This document shows positions 48,073 through 64,000 of a DNA stretch of 64,000 nucleotides, one piece after another. The DNA comes from Blautia luti (lineage in GTDB: Bacteria > Bacillota > Clostridia > Lachnospirales > Lachnospiraceae). Positions within the stretch are counted from its first letter, which is position 1, and every line of letters begins with the position of its first letter. Where the stretch lies: NCBI RefSeq assembly GCF_033096465.1, contig NZ_AP028156.1, positions 429,501-493,500 on the forward strand, read 5' to 3'. The notes below the pieces were generated by a model, which worked only from the letters and a program-made list of their open reading frames with translations, did no database searches and had not been told where the DNA came from. A program made the position numbers and the translations under genes.

Positions 48073-48148
48073 GCTGCTGAAGTTGGTAATATAGCAGCAA
48101 AATCTGTACAGGGATGTTTCAGGAAGACCAGGAGGAAAGGAGAACCAT

Positions 48149-49036
48149 ATGCAGGATGTTGGAGGGAATCTGATAGAGTATTTGTCCAGAATAGCATTCC
48201 CGAAGATCAGTATCATTGATGTCATCCAGATCGCGCTGATCGCATTTTTTGTGTATCAGTTTATGATATGGATCAAATATACCCATGCGTATACGCTGCT
48301 GAAGGGTATACTGGTAGTTCTCCTGTTTATTCTTGTTGCGTATATCTTCAAAATGAATACGATCCTGTGGATCTTCTCCAATCTGGCAAGTACGCTGATC
48401 GTAGGTGTTATTGTTATTTTCCAGCCGGAGCTTCGCAAAGCTCTGGAGCAGATCGGCCAGAAGAAGATCATGGCTGCGATCATTCCTTTTGAATCTGGCA
48501 AGGAAGTCAAGGAGAGATTCACAGATAAAACCATCAGCGAACTGGTAAAGGCCTGCTTTGATATGGGAGAAGTAAAGACAGGCGCACTGATCGTTATCGA
48601 ACAGAATGAGCTGCTTACAGATTATATCCGTACAGGAATCAATCTGGATGCGATCCTTACCAGCCAGCTACTGATCAATATCTTCGAGCATAATACACCG
48701 CTTCATGACGGAGCTGTTATCGTGAGGGAAAACAGAATCGTAGCTGCAACCTGCTATCTTCCGCTGTCAGATAATATGGAGCTGAGCAAGCAGCTGGGAA
48801 CACGCCACAGAGCCGGCGTAGGTATCAGTGAGCAGACAGACTCGGTGACTATTATCGTTTCTGAAGAAACCGGGCAGGTATCAGTAGCCCGGAACGGGAA
48901 ACTGATCCGTGGCGTGAACAGTGCCAGACTCCGTGAGATCCTGATAAAGGCACAGAACAAACAGGTTGTAGATAACAGCAAATTCCGCTATTTACTGAAA
49001 GGAAGAGGCAAACATGAAGAAGAGAAAAATCACTGA
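48149..49036 (+). CDS. cdaA: Diadenylate cyclase CdaA
   Basis: 295 residues. Three membrane helices in residues 15-95 (IQIALIAFFVYQFMIW, LLKGILVVLLFILVAYI, ILWIFSNLAS) precede the DisA_N cyclase domain with HDGAVIVRENRI near 190 and GTRHRAGVGISEQTD near 222, the DGA and RHR motifs that bind ATP. It makes c-di-AMP from two ATP at the membrane. The overlap of 23 bases with cdaR is typical. glmM, often third in this operon, is not here. Confidence 0.97.
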   Translation: MQDVGGNLIEYLSRIAFPKISIIDVIQIALIAFFVYQFMIWIKYTHAYTLLKGILVVLLFILVAYIFKMNTILWIFSNLASTLIVGVIVIFQPELRKALEQIGQKKIMAAIIPFESGKEVKERFTDKTISELVKACFDMGEVKTGALIVIEQNELLTDYIRTGINLDAILTSQLLINIFEHNTPLHDGAVIVRENRIVAATCYLPLSDNMELSKQLGTRHRAGVGISEQTDSVTIIVSEETGQVSVARNGKLIRGVNSARLREILIKAQNKQVVDNSKFRYLLKGRGKHEEEKNH

Positions 49037-50327
49037 TAATATCCCTCTGAAGATCATGTCTGTTGCTGTGGCTGTCGTGGTATGGCTTATTGTTGTGAAT
49101 ATAGACAATCCTGTAGGAACAAACTATTATACACTGACCAATGTGGAGCTGATCAATAAAGAATATGTTGAATCCTCAGATACCATCGGCAAGATGTGTA
49201 TGCCGGAGGAAAAGCAGGACTCTATAAGGATCGCTATTACAACGAACAAAAAGATAAGAGATAAGATCAAAGTTTCTGATATTACTGCTACAGCAGACCT
49301 GCAGCAGGCAGTAAGCCTTGACACAAACCCGGTTATGGTACCCATCACAGTAACCTGTTCCGTGCCGGGAGTAACACCCAATGATATTAAAGTAACCCCT
49401 CAGAACCTCAGTGTGAATCTGGATGAAAAGGAAACACAGGAGTTCGTAGTGAATGTAAGCAGAGGTGATACGAAACCCGGGAAAGACTATGAAGTAGGAA
49501 GCCTGACAGCTAATCCTGAGAAAGTCAGGATTACAGGACCGAAATCTTTGGTGAATAAAATAGACAAGGTAAATGCGACCATTTCCTTGGACGGTAACAC
49601 GCAGGACTTTACACAGGACGTGAATCTTACGATCATAGATAAGAATCAGGAAGCACTTTCAGATTCAGAGATGAATTCTCTCAGGATTGAGAACAATGCG
49701 AAGGTAAGTGTTACAGCCAGACTGTGGAAGATCCGTCAGGGCGTAGGTATTTCAGCAGGATATGTAGGAAGCCCGGCATCCGGCTATCAGGTTGGAACTG
49801 TAACCACAGTTCCGGATACTATCAGCGTGGCAGGAAGCACCGAAGGACTTGAAACCTTGACTCAGAATGATAACACCATCACCATCCCTGCTGACAGTAT
49901 TGACATTTCCGGAGAGTCCAGGGATGTGGAACGGAAGATCAGCCTGAAGGATCTGCTGCCTGACAATGTGAAGCTGACCAGCGATTCCAGTGAAGATGTA
50001 TGGGTAACCGTAAGCATTCTTCCGGAGGGCAGCAGAGAATTTACACTGTCAACCAAGGATATTGAGGTAAAGAATAAACCGGATGATCTTCAGGTAACGT
50101 TCGAGACAGCTCAGATAGAGATCAGGATCAAATCTGATACAGAAGATCTGGATGATCTGAATACAGAGACAGATATTAAAGCGTCCATAGATCTGAAGGG
50201 AAAAGAGGAAGGAAATTATAAAGTCCCTGTGACATTGAGTCTTCCTAACGGATATGAAACTGTAGAGAACGTTTCTACAGAAGTAGTGATCTCATCAGGC
50301 ACCGGAACGGATGACAGCAAGGGATGA
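49014..50327 (+). CDS. cdaR: CdaR (YbbR-domain regulator of CdaA)
   Basis: 437 residues. One N-terminal membrane helix (residues 9-29, IPLKIMSVAVAVVVWLIVVN) and four YbbR repeats of about 85 residues outside the cell, each ending in a strand pattern like VRITGPKSLVNKIDKVNATI. CdaR binds CdaA and lowers or tunes its activity. A 15-base overlap-free gap is followed by an HPr-like gene. Confidence 0.93.
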   Translation: MKKRKITDNIPLKIMSVAVAVVVWLIVVNIDNPVGTNYYTLTNVELINKEYVESSDTIGKMCMPEEKQDSIRIAITTNKKIRDKIKVSDITATADLQQAVSLDTNPVMVPITVTCSVPGVTPNDIKVTPQNLSVNLDEKETQEFVVNVSRGDTKPGKDYEVGSLTANPEKVRITGPKSLVNKIDKVNATISLDGNTQDFTQDVNLTIIDKNQEALSDSEMNSLRIENNAKVSVTARLWKIRQGVGISAGYVGSPASGYQVGTVTTVPDTISVAGSTEGLETLTQNDNTITIPADSIDISGESRDVERKISLKDLLPDNVKLTSDSSEDVWVTVSILPEGSREFTLSTKDIEVKNKPDDLQVTFETAQIEIRIKSDTEDLDDLNTETDIKASIDLKGKEEGNYKVPVTLSLPNGYETVENVSTEVVISSGTGTDDSKG

Positions 50328-50340
50328 GAGGAATACAGAT

Positions 50341-50604
50341 ATGGTTAGTAAGAAAGTAACGGTCAAGAATCCGACAGGTCTTCACCTGAGACCTGCAGGG
50401 ATTTTGTGTAATGAGGCTATGAAATATCAGTCACAGGTAACTTTTGACTATGACGGAGGAACCGCTAATGCCAAGAGCGTGCTGAGCGTACTTGGCGCCT
50501 GCGTGAAATGCGGGGATGAGATAGAGATTATCTGTGAGGGAAAAGATGAACAGACAGCACTGGAAGGTATGGTAAATGCCGTAGAAAGCGGTCTGGGAGA
50601 ATAA
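50341..50604 (+). CDS. HPr-family phosphocarrier protein
   Basis: 87 residues from the ATG at 50341, chosen because GAGAGGAA precedes it. NPTGLHLRPAG near residue 10-20 holds the phospho-acceptor His15, and KSVLSVLG near 45-53 holds a Ser46-type site for HPr kinase. Both catalytic-type residues are present, so it is not a Crh-like His-less form. No enzyme I gene is near, so it may be a second HPr or the main one. It ends the cdaA operon. Confidence 0.88.
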   Translation: MVSKKVTVKNPTGLHLRPAGILCNEAMKYQSQVTFDYDGGTANAKSVLSVLGACVKCGDEIEIICEGKDEQTALEGMVNAVESGLGE

Positions 50605-50621
50605 GTGTTAAAGGTTTATAA

Positions 50622-50654
50622 CAAGTACACTACAAGTACACTCTGGTGTACTTG
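50622..50654 (+). promoter_or_regulatory. Tandem 9-mer plus perfect hairpin upstream of the L,D-transpeptidase
   Basis: CAAGTACAC occurs at 50622-50630 and 50633-50641; its reverse complement GTGTACTTG is at 50646-50654 after a 4-base loop. It lies 27 bases before the GTG start. It could be an operator or an mRNA structure. Confidence 0.5.
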
Positions 50655-50680
50655 AATAGTTATTGAGGGAGGAATTAATT

Positions 50681-53395
50681 GTGAAAAAAAGGTTGGTTGC
50701 AGTAACTCTCGGCGTTATTTTGAGTTTGTCAACTGTAGGCGAAGCCGGTGCATCGGTATTCAGCTCTCCTGAGGACACAGCGGCATCCCAGGATGAGATC
50801 GCAGGATCTGAAGCAGCGGAATCAGAGACAGACAGTGCAGAAACAGCAGACACATCGGAAGTACAGCCAGAGGATTCTGGTGCAGAGGATCTGTTTTCGG
50901 CAGGAGAGTATGCAGGTACTTCAGATGCAGAACCACAGGACAGCAGTTCTGCTTTTTCATCAGGAGAAGATGAGACACAGCCAGCAGCTGTATCACAGAT
51001 AACAGATGCAGTACCGGCAGAGCAGCAGGATGATTCTGATGCTGTGTCAGTGAAGGCAGAGGACTGGATCAGAGAGGATGATCACTTTAAGCTCCGCAAG
51101 CCAGTGAAGAAAGACAGTGCTGACACTTCAGATGCAGCACCGGCAGACACAGTACAGACAGAAGATCAGACCGGTGAGGTGGTTCTCACAGATTCTGATA
51201 CAGATGAAACCGACAATGCAGACAGTACAGATCCGACACAAGCAGATGCAGCAGATACGGAGATTCTGACCGCAGAAGATCCGGATTATGAAGATGCAGC
51301 AGATACAACAGAGGATCCGGTTCTGGATGTATCCGATGACAGTGCAGACGGGGATGCCAATGCCAGCACAGATCCGGCAGATAATACAGACAGCTTTTAT
51401 ACAGCAGCAGACGGACTGGTGAAGATCAGTACGGAATATAAAGAACAGGTACATACAGGCTGGTATCTTTTCGATGAGAACGGATACATGGTTACAGGAC
51501 AGGCACAAGTAAATCCGGAACAGGGCACAGATATTGCTGCTACACAGACAGCAGATGCCAGCGATGGAGATGCCAGCATAGCTGCAGATACAGAAGAAAC
51601 AGTTCAGTCCTGCTTCACATCAGCAGAGGATGCGGTAGTATATACAGGCTGCGAGAATGAAGCGGTTACGCCGTATACATCTACTGTAGGACAGCAGATC
51701 CGTAATAAATGGAAATGGACGGGAACTGCATGGCAGTATTACAATGCAGCAGGTACCCTTGAGACAGTAACACAGCTGGAGGCAGCACAGAAAGCCAACG
51801 GTACTTATACAGGATACTTTAAAATCGAGAATGAATATTACAGCCTGAAAGCAGACGGAACACCACGAACAGGAAATGTCACACTTACAGTAAACGGAGT
51901 GTCCAATCTCTATTATTTCGAGAAGGACAGCACCATCCCGGGAAGAATGTTCCACGAAGGCTGGAGAGTAACAGGACTTAATACTTCCAGGGAGAGATGG
52001 CTCTACTACAGCCAGGGGAAAAACCCGGCAGATATCGGTAAATACTATCAGCGTGGTGTCATTGCTACCAGACTGGATGAGAATATAAAAGGTGCTTATA
52101 CATATCTGATCAGCAGCAAGGGATACCTTCTGAAAAGTACCATAAAGAAAGCTGAGAACGGCGCTTTCTATGGAACTGATAAATATGGAAGAATTTATAC
52201 AAATAAGATGGTTTTGTATAAAGGATACAGATATTATTTCGGAAAAAACGGCAAACGTGCTACATGGAAGAACAGATGGGCGAAGGTCAACAACCATTAT
52301 TATTACTTCGGCGGCGTTCCGGGAAGAGTTCAGGAGAAACATGGCTGGCAGAAACTTACCAATACCAAGAATCAGTTCCTGGGCTGGATCTATTTAGATC
52401 AGAACGGAAACAATTACACTAATAAGTGGACCAGCAACGGATATTATTTCAAAGCCAACGGAAAACTTGCCAGCGGTCTGACACAGATCGGAACAAAGAT
52501 GTATCTCTTTGAATCATCTACGGCAGCAGCCCATAAAGGAAAAGTGTACAAGAATACAATGATCCGTTACAAGAAAAAGCTGTATCTGGCAAGTGCTACA
52601 GGTGCTCTGTATAAGGGTGGATGGAGACAGTATAATAACGGCTGGTACTATCTGAGAAATTATACACCGCTGACAAACCAGTTCAGGAAGAAAAACGGTG
52701 TAAACGGTTATCTGAATTCCAGTGGTAAATACACCACAGGATGGGTGCTTGTAAGTGATGCCAAGAACCTTATGAGATACATTGACCCAACCGGAAACGG
52801 ATATGCAAAAAATACAAGCAAATGGATCAATGGAGTTCTGTATTACTTTGACAGCAACGGATACAGGATCACAGATGTTTCCGCGAAATATCCGAACGGT
52901 CCATATTATCTGGAAGTACAGAGAAAGAATGGTATCATGACTGTTTATACAGACAGTACCAAGAGAATTCCTATCAAGACCATCAGAGTATCCGTAGGTG
53001 TTCCAAGTACTCCTACACCGCCGGGTGAATACACACTCAGAAGCAGCGCAAGATGGCAGCTCCTGATGGGACCATCCTGGGGTCAGTATGGAACCCATGT
53101 AGAGGGAGCAGGAAAGGGAGGAATTTATGTTCACTCTGTTGCATGTGCACAGGCAAATTCCTTCAACCTTCCGGCAGTAGAATATAATAAACTTGGCCAG
53201 CCGGCTTCACACGGATGTATCCGTGCCTGCGTGGCAGATGCCAAATGGGTATATTATCACTGCAATGGTTCCAGAATCAATATCATCGATGGTGTGGTCA
53301 CATATCACGATGCATATAAAGGACCTCTGGGTAAGAATCCTCTTACACCATTAAGAGGCGCCAAGAACTTCGATCCTACAGACCCGGAAGTATAA
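50681..53395 (+). CDS. Secreted L,D-transpeptidase with acidic linker and wall-binding repeats
   Basis: 904 residues from a GTG start behind GGGAGG. A signal peptide (about 1-25, ending GEAGA) is followed by an acidic linker rich in Asp, Ser, Thr and Ala (about 25-240), then aromatic wall-binding repeats (about 245-740, pattern GWYxFdxNGY, KYYQRGVI, YYYFGG). The C-terminal YkuD domain (about 755-890) has SVGVPSTPTPPGEYT and the active site SHGCIRAC with the catalytic Cys near 858. It cross-links peptidoglycan or attaches proteins to it at the surface. Confidence 0.92.
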   Translation: MKKRLVAVTLGVILSLSTVGEAGASVFSSPEDTAASQDEIAGSEAAESETDSAETADTSEVQPEDSGAEDLFSAGEYAGTSDAEPQDSSSAFSSGEDETQPAAVSQITDAVPAEQQDDSDAVSVKAEDWIREDDHFKLRKPVKKDSADTSDAAPADTVQTEDQTGEVVLTDSDTDETDNADSTDPTQADAADTEILTAEDPDYEDAADTTEDPVLDVSDDSADGDANASTDPADNTDSFYTAADGLVKISTEYKEQVHTGWYLFDENGYMVTGQAQVNPEQGTDIAATQTADASDGDASIAADTEETVQSCFTSAEDAVVYTGCENEAVTPYTSTVGQQIRNKWKWTGTAWQYYNAAGTLETVTQLEAAQKANGTYTGYFKIENEYYSLKADGTPRTGNVTLTVNGVSNLYYFEKDSTIPGRMFHEGWRVTGLNTSRERWLYYSQGKNPADIGKYYQRGVIATRLDENIKGAYTYLISSKGYLLKSTIKKAENGAFYGTDKYGRIYTNKMVLYKGYRYYFGKNGKRATWKNRWAKVNNHYYYFGGVPGRVQEKHGWQKLTNTKNQFLGWIYLDQNGNNYTNKWTSNGYYFKANGKLASGLTQIGTKMYLFESSTAAAHKGKVYKNTMIRYKKKLYLASATGALYKGGWRQYNNGWYYLRNYTPLTNQFRKKNGVNGYLNSSGKYTTGWVLVSDAKNLMRYIDPTGNGYAKNTSKWINGVLYYFDSNGYRITDVSAKYPNGPYYLEVQRKNGIMTVYTDSTKRIPIKTIRVSVGVPSTPTPPGEYTLRSSARWQLLMGPSWGQYGTHVEGAGKGGIYVHSVACAQANSFNLPAVEYNKLGQPASHGCIRACVADAKWVYYHCNGSRINIIDGVVTYHDAYKGPLGKNPLTPLRGAKNFDPTDPEV

Positions 53396-53415
53396 AAATA
53401 AATAACAACCATTAC

Positions 53416-53456
53416 AAAAGAGGCATTTCGGAAATAAAAGTCCGAAGTGCCTTTTT
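53416..53456 (+). terminator. Terminator after the L,D-transpeptidase gene
   Basis: AAAAGAGGCATTTCGGA pairs with TCCGAAGTGCCTTTTT around an 8-base loop. Confidence 0.88.
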
Positions 53457-53523
53457 GCGCCCGGCGGGACAGCGATATGTGAACAGAAACGGAGGAAGAA
53501 ATGCCCGGATTAAAAGGTTCGGG

Positions 53524-53552
53524 TTGCATAAGCAATTGCCAGCATGTATAAT
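53524..53552 (+). promoter_or_regulatory. Promoter of the GH25 lysozyme gene
   Basis: TTGCAT (53524-53529), 17 bases, TATAAT (53547-53552), with a 77-base leader to the ATG. Confidence 0.75.
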
Positions 53553-53629
53553 ACTTTTAATAAAATCGTAAAAATTCGCAAAAAAAGAAATCATGTTAAC
53601 GATTACATGCTCTAAGAAAGGACAGGAAG

Positions 53630-55210
53630 ATGAAGAAAAAGTTTCAGGGGTGGAGAAAGAAAGTCGCAGTTGGTCTTCTGGCTGCAGCTCTGTGTGGATC
53701 TCTGTCTGCACAGACGGCAATGGCAACCATGCATTATGACAGAAGACAGACAGTTGCGCAGGAACAGTTCGAATCGTCAGCAGATACTTACAGTGCATCT
53801 GCGTCAGCTGTAAGCAAAAAGGCCTGGCGGAAGATCAACGGCAAATGCTACAATGGAAGCGGAAAAGTCATTCCAGGGGCCATCACCAGAGGAATCGATG
53901 TGTCCGAATGGCAGGAAACCATCAACTGGGCGAAAGTAAAAAAATCTGATGTGGATTTTGCATTCGTGCGCATTGCTCACGGGATCAAATATCAGGATAA
54001 GAATTTCGACTACAATATGAAACAGGCAGAGCTGGCAGGAGTTCCTGTAGGAACTTACGTATACAGTACAGCTACAAATACAGCCGGAGCATTAAAAGAA
54101 GCACAGCTTGCCATAAAGAAGATGAAGGGTTATAAAGTATCCTATCCGGTAGCCTATGATCTGGAAGATGAGAAACTGGAGAAACTCTCCCCAAGGACGA
54201 TATCAAGAATGGCACTGGCGTTCTGTAATGAGATACGTCAGGCGGGATATTATCCGATCATTTACTGTAATACATACTGGTATGATTATCATATAGACTG
54301 GAGCATTCTTTCCGGTCTGGATGTGTGGATCGCCAGATATGGAGATACGATCCAGGCACCGGATTCTTCGAAATATTCCTATACAGTCTGGCAGTCCACT
54401 TCAGGAGAAGCTGACAGCGGCCTGAATCCTACCAGAAAACTGATCTCAGGAATTCCTGTATGGAATGACGTGGATATGGATTTCGGCTTCGTGGATTATA
54501 CGAAGGTAATAACCCCAAGGTGGCAGCCACTGGCATCTTACAGTCCTGCAGTAACTGCTGACACAGGGAAATATGGACATCTTCCCATTGGCGTGAAGAA
54601 CGGCCTGAAAGAAGAAAACGGAGATACCTTCTATTATGTAAACGGTAAAAAGGTTACAGGCTGGACAGAACTGAACAATAAAAAATATTACTTTGCGCCC
54701 GAGACAGGTGCTCTTTATAAAGACCGTCTGTTTAAAGTAAACAATCAGCTCTATTATGCAGATAAAAATGGAGTGATAGCTACAGGAAAATGGGTGGAAT
54801 ATAAAGGGAAAACCTATTATTTTAAGGCAAGTGGAGCTGCCTTTAAAGGTATGAAGCGTGTAAACGGCAAATATTACTGGTTCCATACCTCATCTGGCTA
54901 TATGTTTAAAAACAGAAAAGTGATCAGAAGCACAGGCGATATTTATTATTTCGGCAGCAATGGAGTACGGTATGAAAACGGTATGAAAAAAATAACCGAA
55001 AACGGCACAGTTCATACGTACTATTTTCACAAAGATGGAAAAGTACATAAAGGCTGGTTGACATACAAGGGTAAAAAGTATTATTTTTATAAGGGCAAAA
55101 CAGAGAAGTCAGGACGAAGAGCAGAGAATGTAAGGCTGACAAGTTCCAACGGCATCATTTCGGTGTTTGATAAGTCCGGCGTTTGCATCGATCAGTATAA
55201 GAAGGAGTGA
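53630..55210 (+). CDS. Secreted GH25 lysozyme with wall-binding repeats
   Basis: 526 residues. A signal peptide (about 1-30) is followed by the GH25 muramidase domain (about 85-290): ITRGIDVSEWQETINWAKVK with the catalytic-type Asp, FAFVRIAHG, AYDLEDEKLE with the second acidic pair, and DVWIARYG. The C-terminal repeats (about 320-526) follow the KKYYFAPETGALYKDRLF, YYFxxDGxxxxG pattern shared with the two neighbours. It cleaves the muramic acid-GlcNAc bond in the wall. Confidence 0.93.
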   Translation: MKKKFQGWRKKVAVGLLAAALCGSLSAQTAMATMHYDRRQTVAQEQFESSADTYSASASAVSKKAWRKINGKCYNGSGKVIPGAITRGIDVSEWQETINWAKVKKSDVDFAFVRIAHGIKYQDKNFDYNMKQAELAGVPVGTYVYSTATNTAGALKEAQLAIKKMKGYKVSYPVAYDLEDEKLEKLSPRTISRMALAFCNEIRQAGYYPIIYCNTYWYDYHIDWSILSGLDVWIARYGDTIQAPDSSKYSYTVWQSTSGEADSGLNPTRKLISGIPVWNDVDMDFGFVDYTKVITPRWQPLASYSPAVTADTGKYGHLPIGVKNGLKEENGDTFYYVNGKKVTGWTELNNKKYYFAPETGALYKDRLFKVNNQLYYADKNGVIATGKWVEYKGKTYYFKASGAAFKGMKRVNGKYYWFHTSSGYMFKNRKVIRSTGDIYYFGSNGVRYENGMKKITENGTVHTYYFHKDGKVHKGWLTYKGKKYYFYKGKTEKSGRRAENVRLTSSNGIISVFDKSGVCIDQYKKE

Positions 55211-55280
55211 GCCGAAAATAAGCAGGATCCTGATGAGGGACTGCATTTGGGCCGCATATTCTTAAAAGAAGGGAAAAGTT

Positions 55281-56567
55281 ATGAAAAAAATATGTAGTTT
55301 AGTTTTAGCAGCAACTGTAGCAATTTCAAGTATCGGATCAGGAGTAACTGCCATGGCTGCGACAACAACAGCAACAACATCCAAGTATGTGGTAGTACTG
55401 GATCCAGGCCATGGAGGAAACGAAAGCGGAGCCGGCGCTGTACATAATGGCAAAGTTTATAAAGAAGAAGAGATCAACTGGAAAATTGCAAACTATACCA
55501 TGCAGGCACTGAGCCAGGCATCAGATATCGAAGTTCATCTGACCAAGACCAAGAAGCAGACCGTAAGCCTGATGAAACGGGTTACGACAGCCAAAAATTA
55601 TGGAGCAGACCTTCTGGTAAGCCAGCATATTAATGACTCCGACAGCAGTTATTCAAGAGGCGCGTGTGTTCTGGTCTCATCAGGAACCTACAGACCATCA
55701 CTGGCTGCCAAAGAAAAGAAATTCGCCAGCTATGTACTGCAGGAACTTGGAAAACTGGGAATTTCCAAAAGTGGTACAGGTCTGTTATATCGTACAAGTG
55801 AAAACGGAAGCACTTATCCCAACGGAAAGATCCGTGATTATTATGGTATTGTAGCCCAGAGTGTGGAGCAGAATATTCCAGGTGTCATCATAGAGCATGC
55901 ATTTATCAGCAGCCCTTATGACGCAGTTAATTTCCTCAGCACCAATGCGAAACTGAAGAAGATCGGTGAGGCAGATGCCAGAGCCATCATCCGTTACTGT
56001 AAGCAGCTTCCGGCGAAGAAACCAACACCTGCACCGACTGTGGCTCCGGATGCATTCACAGGATGGAAAGAGAAGAATGGATATTTCTATTATTATATTA
56101 ATTCCAAGAGACAGAGAAACCAGATCCTGAATCTGAATGACGGAATCTATTATGTAAATCAGGAAGGCCAGCGCCAGTATGGATGGCACACGGTAAATGG
56201 AAAAAAATATTACTTCCAGAAAGACGGCAAGGCACAGCTGGGATGGATGGAAAAGAATGGAAGTTATTATTACTTTGACCAGACGACAGGAACTATGTAT
56301 AAAGATATCATGATGGTTTCCGCTGACGGAAAGCTGTACATTTTCGGTAAAAATGGAAAGAGATGCAGCAGATGGACAGAATATCAGGGAAAGAAATATT
56401 TCATTAATAAATCCGGCTATGCACAGACAGGCTGGCTGAAAGTAAGTGGAAAGTGGTATTACTTCCATAAGAAAAATGCATATATGTACAAAAACCGCAC
56501 AGCAGTTACTTCCACAGGAAAGAAATATATCTTTAACTCCAAAGGTGTATGTACAAACAGAAAATAA
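55281..56567 (+). CDS. Secreted N-acetylmuramoyl-L-alanine amidase with wall-binding repeats
   Basis: 428 residues. A signal peptide (about 1-28, ending MAAT) is followed by an Amidase_3 zinc domain (about 35-240): VVLDPGHGGNESGA, a Glu in KEEEINW, SQHINDS and EHAFISSPYD carry the zinc and catalytic residues. Then a Pro-rich hinge (KPTPAPTVAP) and wall-binding repeats (about 255-428). It cuts the stem peptide from the glycan. It lacks its own obvious promoter, so it may be read through from the GH25 gene. Confidence 0.93.
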   Translation: MKKICSLVLAATVAISSIGSGVTAMAATTTATTSKYVVVLDPGHGGNESGAGAVHNGKVYKEEEINWKIANYTMQALSQASDIEVHLTKTKKQTVSLMKRVTTAKNYGADLLVSQHINDSDSSYSRGACVLVSSGTYRPSLAAKEKKFASYVLQELGKLGISKSGTGLLYRTSENGSTYPNGKIRDYYGIVAQSVEQNIPGVIIEHAFISSPYDAVNFLSTNAKLKKIGEADARAIIRYCKQLPAKKPTPAPTVAPDAFTGWKEKNGYFYYYINSKRQRNQILNLNDGIYYVNQEGQRQYGWHTVNGKKYYFQKDGKAQLGWMEKNGSYYYFDQTTGTMYKDIMMVSADGKLYIFGKNGKRCSRWTEYQGKKYFINKSGYAQTGWLKVSGKWYYFHKKNAYMYKNRTAVTSTGKKYIFNSKGVCTNRK

Positions 56568-56597
56568 TATAATCACACAGAAATTGTAAATAGTAAT

Positions 56598-56630
56598 CAA
56601 AAGGTCCTGAGATATATCCAGGACCTTTTG
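56598..56630 (+). terminator. Terminator after the amidase gene
   Basis: CAAAAGGTCCTG is complementary to CAGGACCTTTTG with a short loop. It separates the wall-enzyme cluster from the glycan locus. Confidence 0.82.
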
Positions 56631-56669
56631 TAGATAAAGCGTACAAAGAGACAGATTAAAGAGGTAAGT

Positions 56670-57815
56670 ATGGATAAAAAAATAGTCATCATCGGAGCCA
56701 ACGATTTCCAGAAACCGTTGATCCAAAAAGCCGGTGAAATGGGATATGAGACACATGTGTTTGCATGGAGAGACGGAGCGACAGGAGCCAGGTATGCGGA
56801 TCATTTTTATGATATAAGTATTACAGAACATAAGAAGATTCTGAAGGAATGTGAGAGAATAAAGCCCCAGGCTGTGGCAACCATAGGATCAGATCTGGCA
56901 AATATTACCGTGCAGTATCTGGCAGAGAAACTGGGGCTTCCGGGAAACAGCAGGGAATGTATCTGTTGTTCCACCAATAAATATGCCATGCGTCAGGCCA
57001 TGAAAGCAGCTGGTGTTTCTGTGCCTTATTTCCAGGTAACAGATGGGAAAGAGACGGAGAAGATCACCGTGCCCTCATATCCTGTGATTGTGAAACCAAC
57101 AGACAGATCCGGAAGCCGTGCCATTACCAGAGTGGCGAGACATGAAGATCTGCAGGAAGCGGTCAGGAATGCCATAGACCAGTCTTTTGAGAAAAAGGCG
57201 ATCATTGAGGAATATCTGTCAGGGCAGGAATACAGTATGGAAGCCATCAGTTATGAAGGAACCCATACCTGTCTGGCTGTCACGAAGAAATTCACCACAG
57301 GGGATCCCCATTATATTGAGATCGGACATCTACAGCCGGCACCTCTGGAACCGGAATTAAAAGAGAAGATCATAAAAGAAATCTTTTGTGCCCTGGATGC
57401 ACTGAAGATCCGAAACGGCGCGTCCCACAGTGAGTTCCGGGTAGATGAGAAGGGAAAGGTACACATCATAGAAATCGGTTCCCGTATGGGCGGAGACTGC
57501 ATCGGTTCCCATCTGGTACCTCTTTCCACAGGACAGGATTTCGTGAAAATGGTAGTGCAGACTGCAGCAGGAGAGAAGCCGGAACTGAACTGCAGGCCTT
57601 TGCAGAAATGTTCTGCCATACGCTTTATTATGGATCAGAAGGATCTGGAAACATTGAAACACATAGAAGAAAAATACCCTCAGAATGTGGTGGAAAAGGT
57701 GTTGGAAGGCCAGCCGGGAACCCATCCGGTAACAGACAGTTCCAGCCGTTTCGGTTTTTATATTTTTCAGACAGATACTATGGAAGAAACAGAACAGATG
57801 CAGCTCTGGAAGTAA
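56670..57815 (+). CDS. ATP-grasp ligase 1 (carbamoyl-phosphate-synthase-like)
   Basis: 381 residues. An N-terminal Rossmann-like part (MDKKIVIIGANDFQKPLI) comes before the ATP-grasp core: KYAMRQAMKAAGVSVPYF near 108, VIVKPTDRSGSRAITR near 140, IIEEYLSGQEYSMEAI near 180 and IEIGSRMGGDCIGSHL near 272, with the metal-binding acidic residues in place. The fold joins an acid to an amine using ATP through an acyl phosphate. Neighbours suggest the amine is an amino sugar or the acid a cell-wall building block, but the substrate is not identifiable. Confidence 0.85.
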   Translation: MDKKIVIIGANDFQKPLIQKAGEMGYETHVFAWRDGATGARYADHFYDISITEHKKILKECERIKPQAVATIGSDLANITVQYLAEKLGLPGNSRECICCSTNKYAMRQAMKAAGVSVPYFQVTDGKETEKITVPSYPVIVKPTDRSGSRAITRVARHEDLQEAVRNAIDQSFEKKAIIEEYLSGQEYSMEAISYEGTHTCLAVTKKFTTGDPHYIEIGHLQPAPLEPELKEKIIKEIFCALDALKIRNGASHSEFRVDEKGKVHIIEIGSRMGGDCIGSHLVPLSTGQDFVKMVVQTAAGEKPELNCRPLQKCSAIRFIMDQKDLETLKHIEEKYPQNVVEKVLEGQPGTHPVTDSSSRFGFYIFQTDTMEETEQMQLWK

Positions 57816-57818
57816 AGG

Positions 57819-57848
57819 TTGACAGCCAATACTAATAAGAGATAAGAT
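57819..57848 (+). promoter_or_regulatory. Possible promoter between the two ATP-grasp genes
   Basis: TTGACA (57819-57824) with TAAGAT at 57843-57848, 18-base spacer. The -10 is weak. Confidence 0.4.
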
Positions 57849-57943
57849 AAAAGTAATGTCCTGCTGCAGATGGCAGCAGATTTAACCGAATCAAACAAGC
57901 AGCGAATGCGGATCATGAACATCCGCCTGACGAGGAGCAGTTT

Positions 57944-59128
57944 ATGAAGAAACTGATGATTCTGGGAGCCAGCTATTCACAGCTCCCTCTGATAAATAAA
58001 GCCAGAGAAATGGGGATTTATACCATTGCAGCCAGTACGCCCGGGGACTGGCCGGGATTTGACGCAGCTGATGAGAGCGCTTTTGTGGATATTTCCGACC
58101 CGGAAGCGATCCTTGCACAAGCCCGCAGACAGCAGATCCACGGAATTACCACCTGTTGTCTGGACACAGGGGTTCCTGCCATTGGAACAGTGTGTGAGAA
58201 AATGGGGCTTCGGGGCCCGTCAGAAAAAGCAGCTCGAACTGCGTCCAATAAATATAAGATGAAGGAAGCATTCAGGGAAGCCGGGGTGCAGACAGCCAGA
58301 CATATCTGTATCCATAACAGGGAAGAACTGGTTCATGCACTGGATGAGCTGAATTTCCCGGTGGTGGTCAAGGCTGTGGACCTGATGGGAAGCAGGGGGA
58401 TTTTCCGCTGCAATACCAGACAGGAAGCTCTGGATAATTATGAGAAGACCATGGAAGCTACCAGACAGGAGTATTGCCTGATAGAGGAATTTATAGAAGG
58501 AACACTTTTCGGCGCAGAAGCTATGATGAAGGACGGAAAGCTGGTTTACTGCATGATCGATAATACGGAGAGCTTTATCAGTGCAGTGCCGACTCCGGTA
58601 GGCCATTCCATTCCATTCGAAGGTGGACAGACACTGGAGCTTCAGGCACAGGAACAGGTTCAGGCAGCCATTGAGGCAGTAGGGCTGGATAATTGTCCTG
58701 TAAACTGTGATCTGATCCATAAAGAGGGAAAGGTCTATGTAATTGAGATCACAGGCCGCGCAGGTGCTACCTGCCTTCCGGAACAGATAGGACTTTACTA
58801 CGGGATTAATTATTATGAAGCAATCATCCGCCTGGCTATGGATATGGAAGTGGAGAGCCTGTTTGCACAACCGCCCTGCACAGCCAGTATTTCCCATACA
58901 CTGATGTCAGACAGGGACGGAACAGTAAAGGCAATAAACAACTGCAATGAGCAGACAGAGGATATCGTAGACCTGTCCTTTAATGTCGAACCCGGGGAAA
59001 TGATCCATGCCTACAGAAACGGCAGGGACAGACTGGGCCAGGTGATCGTCAAAGGCAGCAGTCTGCCCGTATGCCGGGCAAGGCTTGCAGAAGTTTTGGC
59101 GAAAATAGAGATTGAATTTGAAGAGTAA
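57944..59128 (+). CDS. ATP-grasp ligase 2 (carbamoyl-phosphate-synthase-like)
   Basis: 394 residues, a clear relative of the previous gene product with the same layout: MKKLMILGASYSQLPLI at the start, NKYKMKEAFREAGVQTARH near 103, VVVKAVDLMGSRGIFR near 138, IEEFIEGTLFGAEAMM near 180 and VIEITGRAGATCLPEQI near 267. It is diverged, not a recent duplicate, so two different substrates or two steps are likely. GAGGAG precedes the ATG. It leads directly into the SMR-type pair. Confidence 0.85.
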   Translation: MKKLMILGASYSQLPLINKAREMGIYTIAASTPGDWPGFDAADESAFVDISDPEAILAQARRQQIHGITTCCLDTGVPAIGTVCEKMGLRGPSEKAARTASNKYKMKEAFREAGVQTARHICIHNREELVHALDELNFPVVVKAVDLMGSRGIFRCNTRQEALDNYEKTMEATRQEYCLIEEFIEGTLFGAEAMMKDGKLVYCMIDNTESFISAVPTPVGHSIPFEGGQTLELQAQEQVQAAIEAVGLDNCPVNCDLIHKEGKVYVIEITGRAGATCLPEQIGLYYGINYYEAIIRLAMDMEVESLFAQPPCTASISHTLMSDRDGTVKAINNCNEQTEDIVDLSFNVEPGEMIHAYRNGRDRLGQVIVKGSSLPVCRARLAEVLAKIEIEFEE

Positions 59129-59148
59129 TTATGGGAAAATGAATTATT

Positions 59149-59505
59149 ATGAAAAAATATGCTGAGAAAAAGAATGCAGGGCTTTTTATAGTACTGCATA
59201 TCAGTCTGCTGTTCAGCTCCCTGAGCGGTGTGTGCTCGAAGATGGCAGCAGCCCAGACTGACTTGAAAGGCTTTGGTATGTGGTATTTCGCAGTACTTCT
59301 GATCATGGCAGTTTATGCAGTGATCTGGCAGCAGATCCTGAAGAAACTTCCGCTGACAGTTGCCTATGCAAACAAGCCGGTGAGCCTGATATGGGGAATG
59401 GTTTGGGGAACACTGATCTTTAAAGAAACAATAACCTGGAATATGATCCTGGGTGCAGTGATCATTTTCGCAGGAATCTATCTGGTGGTGACTGCTGATG
59501 AATAG
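59149..59505 (+). CDS. SMR/ArnE-like half-transporter 1
   Basis: 118 residues with four membrane helices, beginning LFIVLHISLLFSSLSGVCSK. The third helix region has a conserved KPVSLIWGMVWGTLIFKE. Small multidrug-resistance-type proteins of this kind form pairs; ArnE/ArnF use the fold to flip undecaprenyl-phosphate-linked amino sugar. The next gene overlaps by eight bases and encodes the likely second half. Confidence 0.82.
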   Translation: MKKYAEKKNAGLFIVLHISLLFSSLSGVCSKMAAAQTDLKGFGMWYFAVLLIMAVYAVIWQQILKKLPLTVAYANKPVSLIWGMVWGTLIFKETITWNMILGAVIIFAGIYLVVTADE

Positions 59506-59842
59506 TTTACAGATTTCCATATGCATCCTGATCCTGTCCGTATTTATCGCGTCTGTATCCCAGATCCTGCTGAAAATATCTGCAAATAAGACTTATTCCT
59601 CCAGGATCAGGGAATATCTGAATGTTTACGTAATCTTCGGATACGGACTTTTATTTCTCTCTACACTGCTCACCATGATCGCACTGAAAAGAGTGCCTTT
59701 GTCCTGGTCACCTGTAGTGGAATCCAGCAGCTACATTTTTGTATCTGTAATGGGATATCTGGTGCTGAAAGAGAGATTTACGAAAAAGAAAATGACGGGA
59801 CTGCTGGTGATCCTTATCGGGATTCTGGTATTTTCCCTTTAA
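59498..59842 (+). CDS. SMR/ArnF-like half-transporter 2
   Basis: 114 residues with four membrane helices (SVFIASVSQILLKISA, VIFGYGLLFLSTLLTMIAL, SSSYIFVSVMGYLVLKE, LLVILIGILVFSL). It overlaps the previous gene by eight bases, as expected for a heterodimer made in equal amounts. The VPLSWSPVVESSSY segment resembles ArnF-type and EamA half proteins. The cargo is inferred, not seen. Confidence 0.82.
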   Translation: MNSLQISICILILSVFIASVSQILLKISANKTYSSRIREYLNVYVIFGYGLLFLSTLLTMIALKRVPLSWSPVVESSSYIFVSVMGYLVLKERFTKKKMTGLLVILIGILVFSL

Positions 59843-59870
59843 GAGATCGTTACAGAGAAGAGGAAAAAAG

Positions 59871-60824
59871 ATGCTATTATCCATAGTGATCCCATGCTAC
59901 AGATCTGCCCATACTATCAGTAAGGTGGTAGAGATGAGCATGGAAGTGATCGATAAAATAGAAGGGCTGGACTGTGAATTCGTGCTGGTCAATGACTGCT
60001 CCCCGGATAACACTTATGAGGCTATCCAGGCACTGGCAGAGAAATATCCCAATGTGAAGGGAATCGACCTGGCGAAGAATTTCGGACAGCACAATGCTAT
60101 CATGGCGGGAATGCATCAGGCCCAGGGAGATTATATCATGGGAATGGACGATGACATGCAGACCCACCCGTCCCAGATCCCTGCCTTTATTGAGAAAATG
60201 AACGAAGGCTATGATGTGGTTTTCGGTATCTATAAGAAGAGAAAATTTGGTTTTCTGAAAAATCTCACAAGCAAGATCGCATCCTTTATCGTGTGGCATA
60301 TGGTGGAGCGTCCCAAGGGACTGGAAGCCAGCAATTTCTGGTGCTGCAGGAAGTATGTGAGGGATGAGATCGTACAGTATACAGGATATAATCTGTATCT
60401 GCAGATTTTGTTTTATCGGACTACACGACATATCGCGAATATTGAGATCGAGCATTTCTCCAGGGAAGAGGGAAGCTCCAATTATAATTTCAAAAAAGCA
60501 TTCCGGCTGTTTATGTCCTTTATGAATTATACAGTGATCCCTCTTCGGATCGCGGAGGTGATGGGCACACTGTTTTCCATTGCAGGATTTATCGGCGCCA
60601 TTGCAGTCTTTATACAGAAAATGATCCGGCCGGATATGGCTGTGGGATGGAGTTCCCTGATGTGTGCCATGCTCCTGTTCTTCGGAATTACTTTCCTGAT
60701 TCTGGGAGTGCTGGGGGAATATGTGGGCAAGCTGATCCTGAACCAGAATAAGACTCCGCAGTTCGTGATCAGGGAAACTGTAAACATAGATAAGAAAGCA
60801 AAGGAACAAAAAGAGAATGATTGA
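59871..60824 (+). CDS. ArnC/GtrB-like family 2 glycosyltransferase
   Basis: 317 residues. The catalytic GT2 domain (1 to about 220) has IVIPCYRSAHTI, VNDCSPDNT and MDDDMQTHPSQI, where the last acidic group matches the DxD-type site. Two C-terminal membrane helices (about 230-255 and 270-290) are typical of transferases that load a sugar onto undecaprenyl phosphate, such as ArnC or GtrB. It overlaps the aminotransferase gene by eight bases. The sugar is probably that gene's product. Confidence 0.88.
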   Translation: MLLSIVIPCYRSAHTISKVVEMSMEVIDKIEGLDCEFVLVNDCSPDNTYEAIQALAEKYPNVKGIDLAKNFGQHNAIMAGMHQAQGDYIMGMDDDMQTHPSQIPAFIEKMNEGYDVVFGIYKKRKFGFLKNLTSKIASFIVWHMVERPKGLEASNFWCCRKYVRDEIVQYTGYNLYLQILFYRTTRHIANIEIEHFSREEGSSNYNFKKAFRLFMSFMNYTVIPLRIAEVMGTLFSIAGFIGAIAVFIQKMIRPDMAVGWSSLMCAMLLFFGITFLILGVLGEYVGKLILNQNKTPQFVIRETVNIDKKAKEQKEND

Positions 60825-61947
60825 TTTTAACAGACCTGCGTTCGTAGGTTCAGAACTGGAGTATATTCAGGATGCCATTCACAGAGGAATGCTCTGTGGG
60901 GATGGCATTTATACAAAGAAGTGCTCACAGTGGATGGAGAAGGAATTTGACGTCAGCCGGGTTATGCTGACCACATCCTGCACCCATGCGCTGGAGATGG
61001 CAGCCTTTCTCTGTGATATTCAGCCGGGTGACGAGGTGATCATGCCCTCCTATACCTTTGTGTCTACTGCAGACGCTTTTGTACTGAGGGGAGCGAAGAT
61101 CGTATTCGTGGATATCCGCCCGGATACCATGAATCTGGATGAGAAGCTGATCGAACAGGCCATCACGCCGAAGACGAAGGTGATCGTGCCTGTCCACTAT
61201 GCAGGAGTGGCCTGTGAGATGGATACGATCATGGATATTGCACACAGACACGGCCTGAAAGTTGTGGAAGATGCAGCCCAGGGCGTGGATGCCTGTTATA
61301 AAGGCAAAGCACTGGGAACCATCGGAGATTTCGGATGCTACAGCTTCCATGAGACCAAAAATTTCACCATGGGAGAAGGGGGTGCCCTTCTTTTCCAGAA
61401 GGAAGAATATCTGGAGAAGGCCGAGATCCTGAGAGAAAAGGGAACAGACAGAAGTAAATTTTTCCGGGGCCAGGTGGACAAATACCGCTGGATGGATTAC
61501 GGTTCTTCTTATCTTCCCAGCGAGCTGAATGCGGCATATTTGTATGCACAGCTTGAGGCGAAGGATAAGATTCAGAAGAAGCGTATGGAGATTTATGAGT
61601 ATTATCATCGCAACCTGGCAGATCTGGCAGCAGAGGGCAAGGTAGAACAGCCTTATGTCCCACAGGAGTGTGAACATAATGCGCATATGTATTATCTTAA
61701 GGTAAAAGATATGAAAGTCCGTACCAGACTTCTGGCATACCTGCGGGAAAACGGAATCTGCAGTGTGTTCCATTATGTACCTCTTCATTCTGCGCCTGCA
61801 GGACAGAAGTTCGGCAGATTTGCAGGGGAAGATGTATACACTACGAAAGAGAGCGAGCGCCTTCTGCGACTTCCTATGTTCTATAACCTGGACATGGAAG
61901 ATGTAAAAAGGATCGTAGATGTGATTCATAAATTTCAGGAATTCTGA
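60817..61947 (+). CDS. dTDP-4-amino-4,6-dideoxy-hexose transaminase (WecE/RffA-like)
   Basis: 376 residues, DegT/DnrJ/EryC1 family. It resembles E. coli WecE from end to end as I recall it: FNRPAFVGSELEYIQ at the start, MLTTSCTHALEMAA, GDEVIMPSYTFVSTADAFV, VIVPVHYAGVACEMD, VVEDAAQGV, the PLP lysine in SFHETKNFTMGEGG and FFRGQVDKYRW. WecE converts dTDP-4-keto-6-deoxyglucose to dTDP-4-amino-4,6-dideoxygalactose with glutamate. No N-acetyltransferase (WecD) is nearby, so the amino group may be modified otherwise. Confidence 0.9.
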   Translation: MIDFNRPAFVGSELEYIQDAIHRGMLCGDGIYTKKCSQWMEKEFDVSRVMLTTSCTHALEMAAFLCDIQPGDEVIMPSYTFVSTADAFVLRGAKIVFVDIRPDTMNLDEKLIEQAITPKTKVIVPVHYAGVACEMDTIMDIAHRHGLKVVEDAAQGVDACYKGKALGTIGDFGCYSFHETKNFTMGEGGALLFQKEEYLEKAEILREKGTDRSKFFRGQVDKYRWMDYGSSYLPSELNAAYLYAQLEAKDKIQKKRMEIYEYYHRNLADLAAEGKVEQPYVPQECEHNAHMYYLKVKDMKVRTRLLAYLRENGICSVFHYVPLHSAPAGQKFGRFAGEDVYTTKESERLLRLPMFYNLDMEDVKRIVDVIHKFQEF

Positions 61948-62063
61948 TTGATCCTGATGAAAGCAACTTATAATCAGCTCATAATTGAAACAGGAAACTT
62001 CCGGACTGCAGTGATCTGCACAGCTTCCGGTAAAAATATATCAAAAGAAAAGAGGAAACGAAA

Positions 62064-62618
62064 ATGGGAAAAATAAAAGTTACAGAATGTGGCGGAATTA
62101 AAGGATTAAAAGTAGTAGAGCCAACAGTCTTCGGAGATGCAAGAGGCTACTTTATGGAAACTTATAACTACAATGATTTCAAAGAAGCAGGAATTGATGT
62201 GGAATTCGTACAGGATAATCAGTCCAGCTCCCATAAAGGGGTTCTCCGTGGACTTCATTTCCAGATCAATTATCCGCAGGATAAACTGGTACGTGTAGTA
62301 AACGGTGAGGTATTTGACGTTGCAGTGGACCTTCGTGAAGGATCTGAGACTTACGGCAAATGGTTCGGAGTTGTTCTCTCCGCAGAGAACAAGAAACAGT
62401 TCTTTATTCCTAAGGGATTCGCACATGGATTCCTGGTACTTTCCGAACATGCGGAATTCGTTTACAAATGCTCTGATTTCTATCACCCGAACGATGAGGG
62501 CGGACTGATCTGGAATGACCCGGATATCGGAGTAGAATGGCCGATCCCGGAGGGAATGGAATTAAGCTTCTCAGATAAAGATACCAAATGGGGAAGCTTC
62601 AAGGATTACCGCAAATAG
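62064..62618 (+). CDS. rfbC: dTDP-4-dehydrorhamnose 3,5-epimerase
   Basis: 184 residues, standard. It contains VVEPTVFGDARGYFMET, VQDNQSSSHKGVLRGLHFQ with the catalytic His, VNGEVFDVAVDLREGS and FIPKGFAHGFLVLSE. It makes dTDP-4-keto-L-rhamnose for rhamnose-containing polymers. rfbA, rfbB and rfbD are not in the window and may lie to the right. AAGAGGAAA precedes the ATG. Confidence 0.95.
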   Translation: MGKIKVTECGGIKGLKVVEPTVFGDARGYFMETYNYNDFKEAGIDVEFVQDNQSSSHKGVLRGLHFQINYPQDKLVRVVNGEVFDVAVDLREGSETYGKWFGVVLSAENKKQFFIPKGFAHGFLVLSEHAEFVYKCSDFYHPNDEGGLIWNDPDIGVEWPIPEGMELSFSDKDTKWGSFKDYRK

Positions 62619-62630
62619 GAGAACGAGAGA

Positions 62631-63446
62631 TTGAAGACGATTTTTTCTTTACCCATGGACATTTACAAAAACAGACGGCTTGTGGCGAAGCTGGCGAAAA
62701 ATGACTTCAAAACAAGATATGCAGGTTCGTATCTGGGAATCGTATGGGCATTTATCCAGCCTGTTATCACCATTCTGGTATACTGGTTTGTTTTCTCAGT
62801 AGGATTCCGTTCAGGAACCGGTGATCTGGGAGTGCCTTTTGTCCTGTATCTGGTGGCAGGTATTGTACCCTGGTTCTTTTTCCAGGATGCCCTGATCGGC
62901 GGAACCAATTCCATGCTGGAATATAATTATCTGGTAAAAAAGGTAGTATTCAACATCAGCGTGCTTCCGGTGGTCAAGATCATCTCTGCCATGTTTGTAC
63001 ATGTATTTTTCGTGCTGTTTACCATTATTCTGTATGCAGCGTATGGAAGAATGCCTGATATTTACTATCTGCAGCTGATCTATTACACAGGATGCGTGTT
63101 TATTCTGGTGCTGGGCTTATCCTACGCCACTAGTGCCATTGTAATCTTTTTCAGGGACCTGACACAGATCATCAATATTATACTTCAGGTAGGAGTGTGG
63201 CTTACACCGATCATGTGGATTGTGGAAACTTCTCCTCTTCAGGGACATCCGGTGATCATGAAGATCCTGAAACTGAATCCGATGTACTATATTGTTTCCG
63301 GATACAGAGATACGTTTCTTATGAAAACCTGGTTCTTCCAGCATGCGGGATGGACTGCTTATTTCTGGGTATTCACCATCCTGTGCTTCCTGTTTGGCAG
63401 CTGGGTATTTAAACGTCTGCGCATCCATTTTGCGGATGTATTATAA
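62631..63446 (+). CDS. Polysaccharide ABC exporter permease (Wzm/TagG-like)
   Basis: 271 residues from a TTG start behind AGGAG. ABC2_membrane type with six helices: KNDFKTRYAGSYLGIVWAFIQPVITILVYW is the typical N-terminal entry, followed by VPFVLYLVAGIVPWFFFQDAL and a C-terminal NPMYYIVSGYRD loop. It pairs with the ATP-binding protein that follows to export a lipid-linked polysaccharide or teichoic acid chain. It begins 12 bases after rfbC. Confidence 0.92.
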   Translation: MKTIFSLPMDIYKNRRLVAKLAKNDFKTRYAGSYLGIVWAFIQPVITILVYWFVFSVGFRSGTGDLGVPFVLYLVAGIVPWFFFQDALIGGTNSMLEYNYLVKKVVFNISVLPVVKIISAMFVHVFFVLFTIILYAAYGRMPDIYYLQLIYYTGCVFILVLGLSYATSAIVIFFRDLTQIINIILQVGVWLTPIMWIVETSPLQGHPVIMKILKLNPMYYIVSGYRDTFLMKTWFFQHAGWTAYFWVFTILCFLFGSWVFKRLRIHFADVL

Positions 63447-63526
63447 TACGGGTTACGTGTGAACGATAACTGATGAGGAACCACCTGGCTCCTGATATTA
63501 TAGAAATGTAGTGGAAAGGAAAGAAC

Positions 63527-64000
63527 GTGGAAAACAAGAAAGTAATTCAGGTGAAAAATCTCACCAAAATGTATAAATTATATGATAAGCCTTCAGATCG
63601 TCTCAAAGAAGCTCTGGGGCTTACCAAAAAGAAACTTTATAAAGAGCATTATGCACTGCGTGATGTAAACTTCGATATTCAGGAAGGGGAATGCGTGGGT
63701 ATTATCGGAACCAATGGTTCCGGTAAATCCACGATCCTGAAGATCATCACCGGTGTTCTGACTCCTACCCAGGGAGAAGTGAAGGTAGACGGACGTATCT
63801 CTGCCCTGCTGGAGCTGGGAGCCGGATTTAATATGGAATATTCCGGCCTGGAGAATGTATACCTGAATGGTACCATGATCGGATTTTCCAAAGAGGAGAT
63901 CGATGCCAGACTGGACGATATCCTGGAATTCGCAGACATTGGAGATTTTATCCACCAGCCTGTTAAGACATATTCCAGCGGTATGTTCGTGCGTCTGGCT
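63527..64000 (+). CDS. Polysaccharide ABC exporter ATP-binding protein, 3'-truncated by window edge
   Basis: 158 residues are visible from a GTG start behind AAGGAA; the frame stays open to the last base. Walker A is GTNGSGKST near residue 62, then the LLELGAGFNMEYSGLENVYLNG stretch that is diagnostic of TagH/Wzt-type exporters, and the ABC signature YSSGM near 148. Walker B and any C-terminal sugar-binding domain lie outside. Such proteins power export of O-antigen-like chains or teichoic acids. Confidence 0.92.
   Translation, partial: MENKKVIQVKNLTKMYKLYDKPSDRLKEALGLTKKKLYKEHYALRDVNFDIQEGECVGIIGTNGSGKSTILKIITGVLTPTQGEVKVDGRISALLELGAGFNMEYSGLENVYLNGTMIGFSKEEIDARLDDILEFADIGDFIHQPVKTYSSGMFVRLA

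Follow-up and report, generated by a model that had tools for sequence, protein, structure and literature searches.

What would two ATP-grasp ligases do in a Gram-positive bacterium, among genes for making a 4-amino sugar and moving it across the membrane on a lipid carrier? The question is raised by a six-gene cassette of Blautia luti (NCBI RefSeq assembly GCF_033096465.1, contig NZ_AP028156.1) located in the 64,000-nucleotide stretch analyzed here, referred to as the window, which encompasses positions 429501-493500 of C1, the single contig of the 3.74-Mb genome G000. The cassette consists of six open reading frames (ORFs), all on the + strand: AG1 (56670-57815), coding for an ATP-grasp ligase of 381 amino acids; AG2 (57944-59128), coding for a second ATP-grasp ligase of 394 amino acids that includes a LAL_C2 domain; SMR1 (59149-59505) and SMR2 (59498-59842), coding for the ArnE-like and ArnF-like halves of a putative flippase of the small multidrug resistance (SMR) type; GT (59871-60824), coding for an ArnC/GtrB/PgfS-like glycosyltransferase of the GT-A type and putative undecaprenyl-phosphate sugar transferase; and WecE (60817-61947), coding for a dTDP-4-keto-6-deoxyglucose 4-aminotransferase. 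The gaps between consecutive genes are 128, 20, -8, 28, and -8 bp, the negative values being the 8-bp overlaps of SMR1 with SMR2 and of GT with WecE. An earlier reading of the window, called here the original prediction, had proposed these six genes with the same positions, strand and families, and all of them are present. We consider it probable, at roughly six chances in ten, that the cassette is part of a GT-A/flippase/GT-C wall-glycosylation module in which 4-amino-4,6-dideoxygalactose (Fuc4N) is N-acylated by ATP-grasp ligases and not by an acetyltransferase or a formyltransferase.

Linkage of the ATP-grasp genes to sugar-transfer genes

The six genes are not a chance neighborhood, since they recur together in many other genomes. 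Eighty AG1 loci were taken from named genomes with an AG1 profile, chosen on AG1 similarity only and ignoring their neighbors, and partner genes were counted by tblastn (at least 45% identity for WecE, 30% for GT, and 25% for SMR, plus coverage limits). Simple ORF calling misread some loci and left the AG1 ORF uncalled in nine of the 80; the ORF comparison and the tree therefore used 71 loci, the tree including also the window and 10 of 120 listed proteins, while alignment A1 includes 17 of the same 120. WecE was found in 66 of the 80 loci, GT in 57, SMR1 in 60, and SMR2 in 61; 42 loci have the complete set of four, and 75 have one or more. In the 50 loci flanked by 5 kb or more on each side, the corresponding numbers were 41, 39, 39, and 40, and 30 have the complete set. 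Two of the five loci without partners, L052 and L060, are cut by contig ends and a third, L037, has less than 1 kb on one side, while L104 and L110 are real exceptions. In L110 a sugar aminotransferase-like gene lies about 6 kb from the AG1 relative (L110:9983-11143), which occupies a long branch of the tree and whose cluster neighbors resemble, by eye, nonulosonic acid genes.

Two further counts led in the same direction. Among 150 genomes of the family, that of the window included, WecE was located within 6 kb of 9 of the 14 AG1 orthologues (at least 45% identity) and of 8 of the 60 more distant ATP-grasp rows, a count that omits AG2 itself, the second piece of one gene, and a 123-residue fragment. 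In the stretches fetched around the five orthologues without a nearby WecE (L121-L125), a family-2 glycosyltransferase is present in four, one of which also has the SMR pair, and in L124 no other cassette gene is present. Conversely, 19 of 50 WecE genes have an ATP-grasp_4 gene no more than 6 kb away, as against 5 of 47 weaker DegT-family aminotransferases of the same genomes (Fisher p 0.002), after omission of carbamoyl-phosphate-synthase-length frames and one WecE fragment and addition of two ATP-grasp rows; many WecE genes thus manage without an ATP-grasp neighbor. The original prediction was to be abandoned if the ATP-grasp genes occurred mostly apart from SMR, glycosyltransferase and aminotransferase genes, and the AG1-locus counts, the WecE proximity counts and the contrast with DegT-family genes indicate that they do not. 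The linkage spans records labelled Lachnospiraceae, Oscillospiraceae, Erysipelotrichaceae, and others, in several gene orders.

The ligase slot and the fused PLP-enzyme domain

The linkage to sugar genes proposed for the two ligases was thus confirmed, but the pair itself is not a conserved unit, as AG2 (at least 40% identity) is present in only 20 of the 80 AG1 loci, 13 of them in records labelled Blautia. AG2 matches of at least 38% identity outside the window genome numbered 13, of which 11 were fetched, all from other genera (ten other genomes of the family). Ten of these 11 loci have GT within 1 kb, four have WecE at a distance of up to about 6 kb, and six have a YfhO gene in the stretch; AG1 is present in L123 only and absent from the stretch in the other ten, although two of the ten genomes (G058 and G069) hold AG1 elsewhere or nearby. 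The slot is therefore filled by AG1, the commonest ligase of the cassette, by AG2, or by both, and the two-ligase form found in the window is a local combination. A compact form found in Lachnoclostridium-type records (L080-L082) consists of a membrane protein (multi-pass by eye), WecE, AG1, GT, SMR1, and SMR2, followed by non-cassette genes. In the Erysipelotrichaceae (Longicatena and Massilimicrobiota), L097:8861-16296 and L115 include WecE, AG1, a ketopantoate-reductase-like gene and two more ATP-grasp genes, and then GT and the SMR pair. From this variety the recurring core can be defined as one 4-aminotransferase, one ATP-grasp ligase, one GT-A enzyme, and one SMR pair.

In many relatives AG1 is extended by a second domain. 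The AG1 ORF codes for 702-748 amino acids in 17 of the 71 loci where it was called, 13 of the 17 being in records labelled Blautia. Three of these long proteins were scanned and showed AG1 followed by a PF00291 domain, characteristic of pyridoxal 5'-phosphate (PLP) enzymes, and tblastn detected the domain in all 17 loci. Of 64 genomes from the genus of the window, 22 have AG1, and in 18 of these its reading frame is at least 604 amino acids long; the remaining four are three short frames (382-393 amino acids, the window included) and one 332-amino acid frame that matches AG1 residues 3-319 only. These 64 genomes overlap the 80 loci, and the two counts are not independent. In the Blautia wexlerae locus L038 the domain falls closest to the group of D-cysteine desulfhydrase, D-cysteate sulfo-lyase, and 1-aminocyclopropane-1-carboxylate (ACC) deaminase, under all NCBIfam cut-offs. 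Each of the 20 PLP domains compared has the GGNK motif, and Ser-Asn and YTGK form invariant columns, which we take to belong to the active site region.

The PLP domain goes with AG2. It was found in 18 of the 80 AG1 loci, 17 of which include AG2, the contig of the remaining one ending 593 bp further on; in other genera, an AG2-type ATP-grasp is itself fused to a D-cysteine-desulfhydrase-like PLP domain in L129:8844-10988 and L130:61-2073, and in L134 the PLP enzyme is a separate gene beside GT and AG2. Most simply, the domain is a supplier or editor of the amino acid used by AG2. The window genome showed no match to the domain, so that its AG2 would need a common amino acid or some other substrate. 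The same data bear on a different division of labor, in which AG1 is the only ligase acting on the sugar and AG2, joined in relatives by the PLP enzyme, prepares the acid for AG1, such as a dipeptide or non-protein amino acid. AG1 can do without AG2, as 50 of the 66 WecE-bearing AG1 loci have none of at least 40% identity, and the company kept by the PLP domain fits this scheme; we nevertheless find it unlikely, since AG2-type ligases occur with GT and WecE in stretches from which AG1 is absent (L126, L127, and L130), so that AG2 can itself fill the sugar slot. L129 also has WecE without AG1 in the stretch, but no GT was shown there and AG1 is found elsewhere in that genome.

Ligase relatives, sugar supply and downstream genes

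The eight window genes between 56670 and 63446 were scanned with Pfam and NCBIfam. AG1 and AG2, which are 25% identical to each other, are ATP-grasp proteins by both; AG2 matched PF18603 (53 bits) and PF13535 (43 bits) over cut-off, and among the 25 best NCBIfam matches listed for each ligase none reached its cut-off. The ligase alignments showed two lysines, two acidic residues and one arginine to be invariant (in AG2 K103, K143, D256, E268, and R272, 13 sequences); the fold is that of ATP-grasp enzymes, and we take these to be the ATP/Mg residues. The L-amino acid ligase BL00235 (3vot) is the top structural match of the AG1 model and the second one of AG2, after 4dim, an Anaerococcus prevotii protein entitled 'phosphoribosylglycinamide synthetase' (E 2.5e-95, 38% identity across 388 aligned residues). 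As no activity was found stated for the 4dim entry, its title assigns no function to AG2, and the nearest enzymes of stated activity to both models are L-amino acid ligases. The ligases of this locus resemble BL00235, BacD/YwfE, and RizA in fold, conserved ATP-grasp residues, and expected formation of an amide; they differ from them by the amino-sugar-transfer context of their genes and by an identity of only 18-24% in structural alignments. AG1 is thus a probable ligase of an amino acid (or other acid) to a 4-amino sugar, in agreement with the proposal that the ligases join an amino acid or other acid.

Two other activities were considered. O-antigens with hydroxyacyl amino sugars exist, and the enzymes could join a non-amino acid (hydroxy, keto-derived, or dicarboxylic) to the 4-amino group, the acid being supplied by a ketopantoate-reductase-like gene such as that found in the L097 and L115 cassettes and near the edge of L126. 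This gene is absent among the eight scanned genes of the window and the nearest enzymes of stated activity use L-amino acids, which makes a non-amino acid a rather doubtful substrate. The relatives BacD and BL00235 make free dipeptides, and the ligases could likewise have no relation to the sugar, making a free dipeptide or modifying peptidoglycan or teichoic acid and being present only by operon sharing. The two AG1 loci without any partner would be compatible with such a role, which nonetheless seems quite improbable given that the linkage is kept across several families, several gene orders, and two separate ligase types.

WecE matched NF008687 with 638 bits (cut-off 375, +263) and TIGR02379 with 623 bits (cut-off 435), it is the sole match at E <= 1e-40 in the window genome, and judging by these models its expected product is dTDP-Fuc4N. 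RmlA and RmlB are present at 1112-1115 kb of the genome, both over cut-off, and dTDP-4-keto-6-deoxyglucose can therefore be made. RmlC (62064-62618, +; TIGR01221 258 bits, cut-off 156), the dTDP-4-dehydrorhamnose 3,5-epimerase that follows WecE, draws on the same pool of dTDP intermediate for the rhamnose branch. The cassette proteins showed no Pfam match to any acetyl- or formyltransferase family, and no acetyltransferase family that could represent a WecD-type enzyme beside WecE was found in the eight genes, the rest of the genome not having been searched. The sole formyltransferase match among those listed for the six proteins was to PurT, itself an ATP-grasp enzyme, below cut-off.

GT matched PF00535 with 101 bits, over cut-off, and its best NCBIfam matches were ArnC (160 bits, cut-off 529, E 6.4e-47) and PgfS (158 bits, cut-off 500, E 3.5e-46), scores under cut-off that make it a relative of both and a member of neither. 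SMR1 and SMR2 matched EamA (31.8 and 36.3 bits, cut-off 28.2), and their matches to the ArnE (E 6.7e-6, 26 bits, cut-off 92) and ArnF (E 3.7e-6, 27 bits, cut-off 99) models were weak and far under cut-off; by the NCBIfam cut-offs, then, none of the three is an equivalog of the Arn pathway of 4-amino-4-deoxy-L-arabinose (L-Ara4N). The Arn sugar is deformylated to a free amine, and although GT and the SMR genes most resemble ArnC and ArnE/F, it is very improbable that Fuc4N stays a free charged amine in that manner while the ligases act on another residue, since no ArnA-type formyltransferase or ArnD-type deformylase was found among the listed Pfam and NCBIfam matches of the six proteins and ATP-grasp enzymes, needing ATP, should act before flipping.

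RmlC is followed in the same direction by a Wzm-like ABC-2 permease for polymer export (62631-63446, +; PF01061 42 bits, cut-off 26.9; a galactan permease model matched with E 2.9e-15, below cut-off) and by a Wzt-like ATPase (63527-64000, +) whose gene extends 798 bases beyond the window edge, coding in full for 423 amino acids with PF00005 and PF14524 (Wzt_C) over cut-off. The export pair expected after the cassette is thus present. The 19 kb to the right of the window include the rest of Wzt, a methyltransferase-domain protein, a YfhO-family membrane protein, a PF02397 sugar-phosphate transferase, an LCP protein, and five family-2 glycosyltransferases, three with two domains and two with one. 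The YfhO-family gene (C1:501535-504018, window coordinates 72035-74518; 217 bits, cut-off 28.5) lies about 8 kb past the right edge and about 10 kb from WecE, and an opposite-strand ORF follows it at 504185-505465. The original prediction noted no ArnT-like transferase in the window; the locus does include a membrane transferase of the GT-C type, found where the original prediction had suggested looking for one, to the right of 64000. As described in PMC8035078, YfhO is the GT-C partner of CsbB in other Gram-positives, and YfhO, a GT-A enzyme and a flippase together glycosylate wall or lipoteichoic acid. A GT-C candidate of six membrane types (YfhO, DUF2142, and four multi-pass by eye) was found in 18 of the 50 well-flanked AG1 loci; this is the least covered part of the model, in part because the Blautia stretches stop short of the YfhO position.

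Upstream of the cassette there are three consecutive genes for secreted wall enzymes (50663-56567), a YkuD L,D-transpeptidase, a GH25, and an amidase_3, the latter two with choline-binding-type repeats over the Pfam cut-off that might recognize the decorated polymer. A terminator-like inverted repeat of 13 pairs, one of them G-T, lies between the amidase gene and AG1 (56598-56630; strand: -), but it is weak evidence because nine such sites were found on both strands of the stretch and 5.3 are expected in shuffles. In a comparison that rests on eight loci, window positions 46975-64000 were set against locus L038 of Blautia wexlerae. Four upstream genes were included, among which we take CdaA, YbbR, and HPr to be present; HPr is 78% identical and the other three are 82-90% identical, and RmlC, Wzm, and Wzt are 90-98% identical, as opposed to 58-67% for AG1, AG2, SMR1, SMR2, and GT, 83% for WecE, 54-55% for the secreted wall enzymes other than the amidase, and 35% over one third of its length for the amidase. 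The SMR and GT genes are 77-84% identical to those of L039. These steps in identity suggest that a surface module has been exchanged or has diverged rapidly, in the manner of serotype loci. An S11-type D,D-carboxypeptidase gene (the L044 member was scanned) lies between WecE and RmlC in L038 (16304-17575), L040, and L044, and the gene of L038 has 14 related genes; the window has only 116 bp at that place.

Proposed pathway and comparison with known systems

We infer the following pathway, in its individual reactions as well as in the identity of the acyl donor and of the acceptor and in whether ligation precedes loading. RmlA and RmlB would produce dTDP-4-keto-6-deoxyglucose, which WecE would aminate to dTDP-Fuc4N. 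Using ATP, AG1 would then activate an amino acid, or a related acid, at its carboxyl group and attach it to the sugar at the 4-amino position, standing in for the acetyl- or formyltransferase step of the enterobacterial common antigen (ECA) and Arn pathways, and AG2 may carry out a second ligation in the strain of the window, which would either extend the acyl group or produce the unit from which it is built. The ArnC/GtrB-like enzyme would place the N-acylated sugar onto undecaprenyl phosphate and the SMR pair would flip it, a logic of 4-amino sugar, lipid carrier and flippase already present in the original prediction and supported by the data above. Finally, the YfhO-type GT-C would transfer the sugar to the polymer exported by Wzm/Wzt, and the LCP protein would attach this polymer to the wall.

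If N-acylation by ATP-grasp ligases is right, these enzymes are a third route, next to acetyl- and formyltransferases, by which 4-amino sugars are capped for lipid-linked transfer, and through the amino acids that they add they could introduce charge and antigenic diversity. A more tentative extension, which we put forward with considerable reservation, is that ATP-grasp ligases act in succession to give the Fuc4N side sugar a short peptide-like acyl chain, for which the fused D-cysteine-desulfhydrase-like PLP enzyme of most Blautia-type cassettes would provide an unusual amino acid (e.g., D- or beta-substituted). Were this true, ligase swaps together with gain and loss of the PLP domain would give common Clostridia an aminoacyl-glycan coat that varies much as serotypes do; no report of such a wall decoration was recognized in a literature search.

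Known systems share parts of this organization. The locus resembles the WecE/WecD step of ECA, where WecD is the acetyltransferase on the Fuc4N branch, in having a WecE over cut-off and dTDP-Fuc4N as the expected product, and differs from it by the ATP-grasp ligases found instead of WecD. With the ArnC/ArnE/ArnF pathway, in which L-Ara4N is carried on undecaprenyl phosphate, moved by a two-part SMR flippase and transferred by a GT-C enzyme, it would share a 4-amino sugar on undecaprenyl phosphate, an SMR-type two-part flippase, and a GT-C acceptor step; unlike in that pathway, the sugar would be made by WecE, ATP-grasp ligases are found where ArnA and ArnD act, the GT-C is of the YfhO type, and the proteins score under the Arn cut-offs. 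With multi-component transmembrane glycosylation of the CsbB-GtcA-YfhO type and others (PMC8035078), the locus shares a YfhO-type GT-C and would share a GT-A enzyme acting on a polyprenyl phosphate, a small dedicated flippase, and wall polymers as acceptors; here a putative flippase in the form of an EamA/SMR pair replaces the GtrA type, and the module itself would provide for the synthesis, and probably the acylation, of its amino sugar. The locus can thus best be labelled a novel form of GT-A/flippase/GT-C wall glycosylation.

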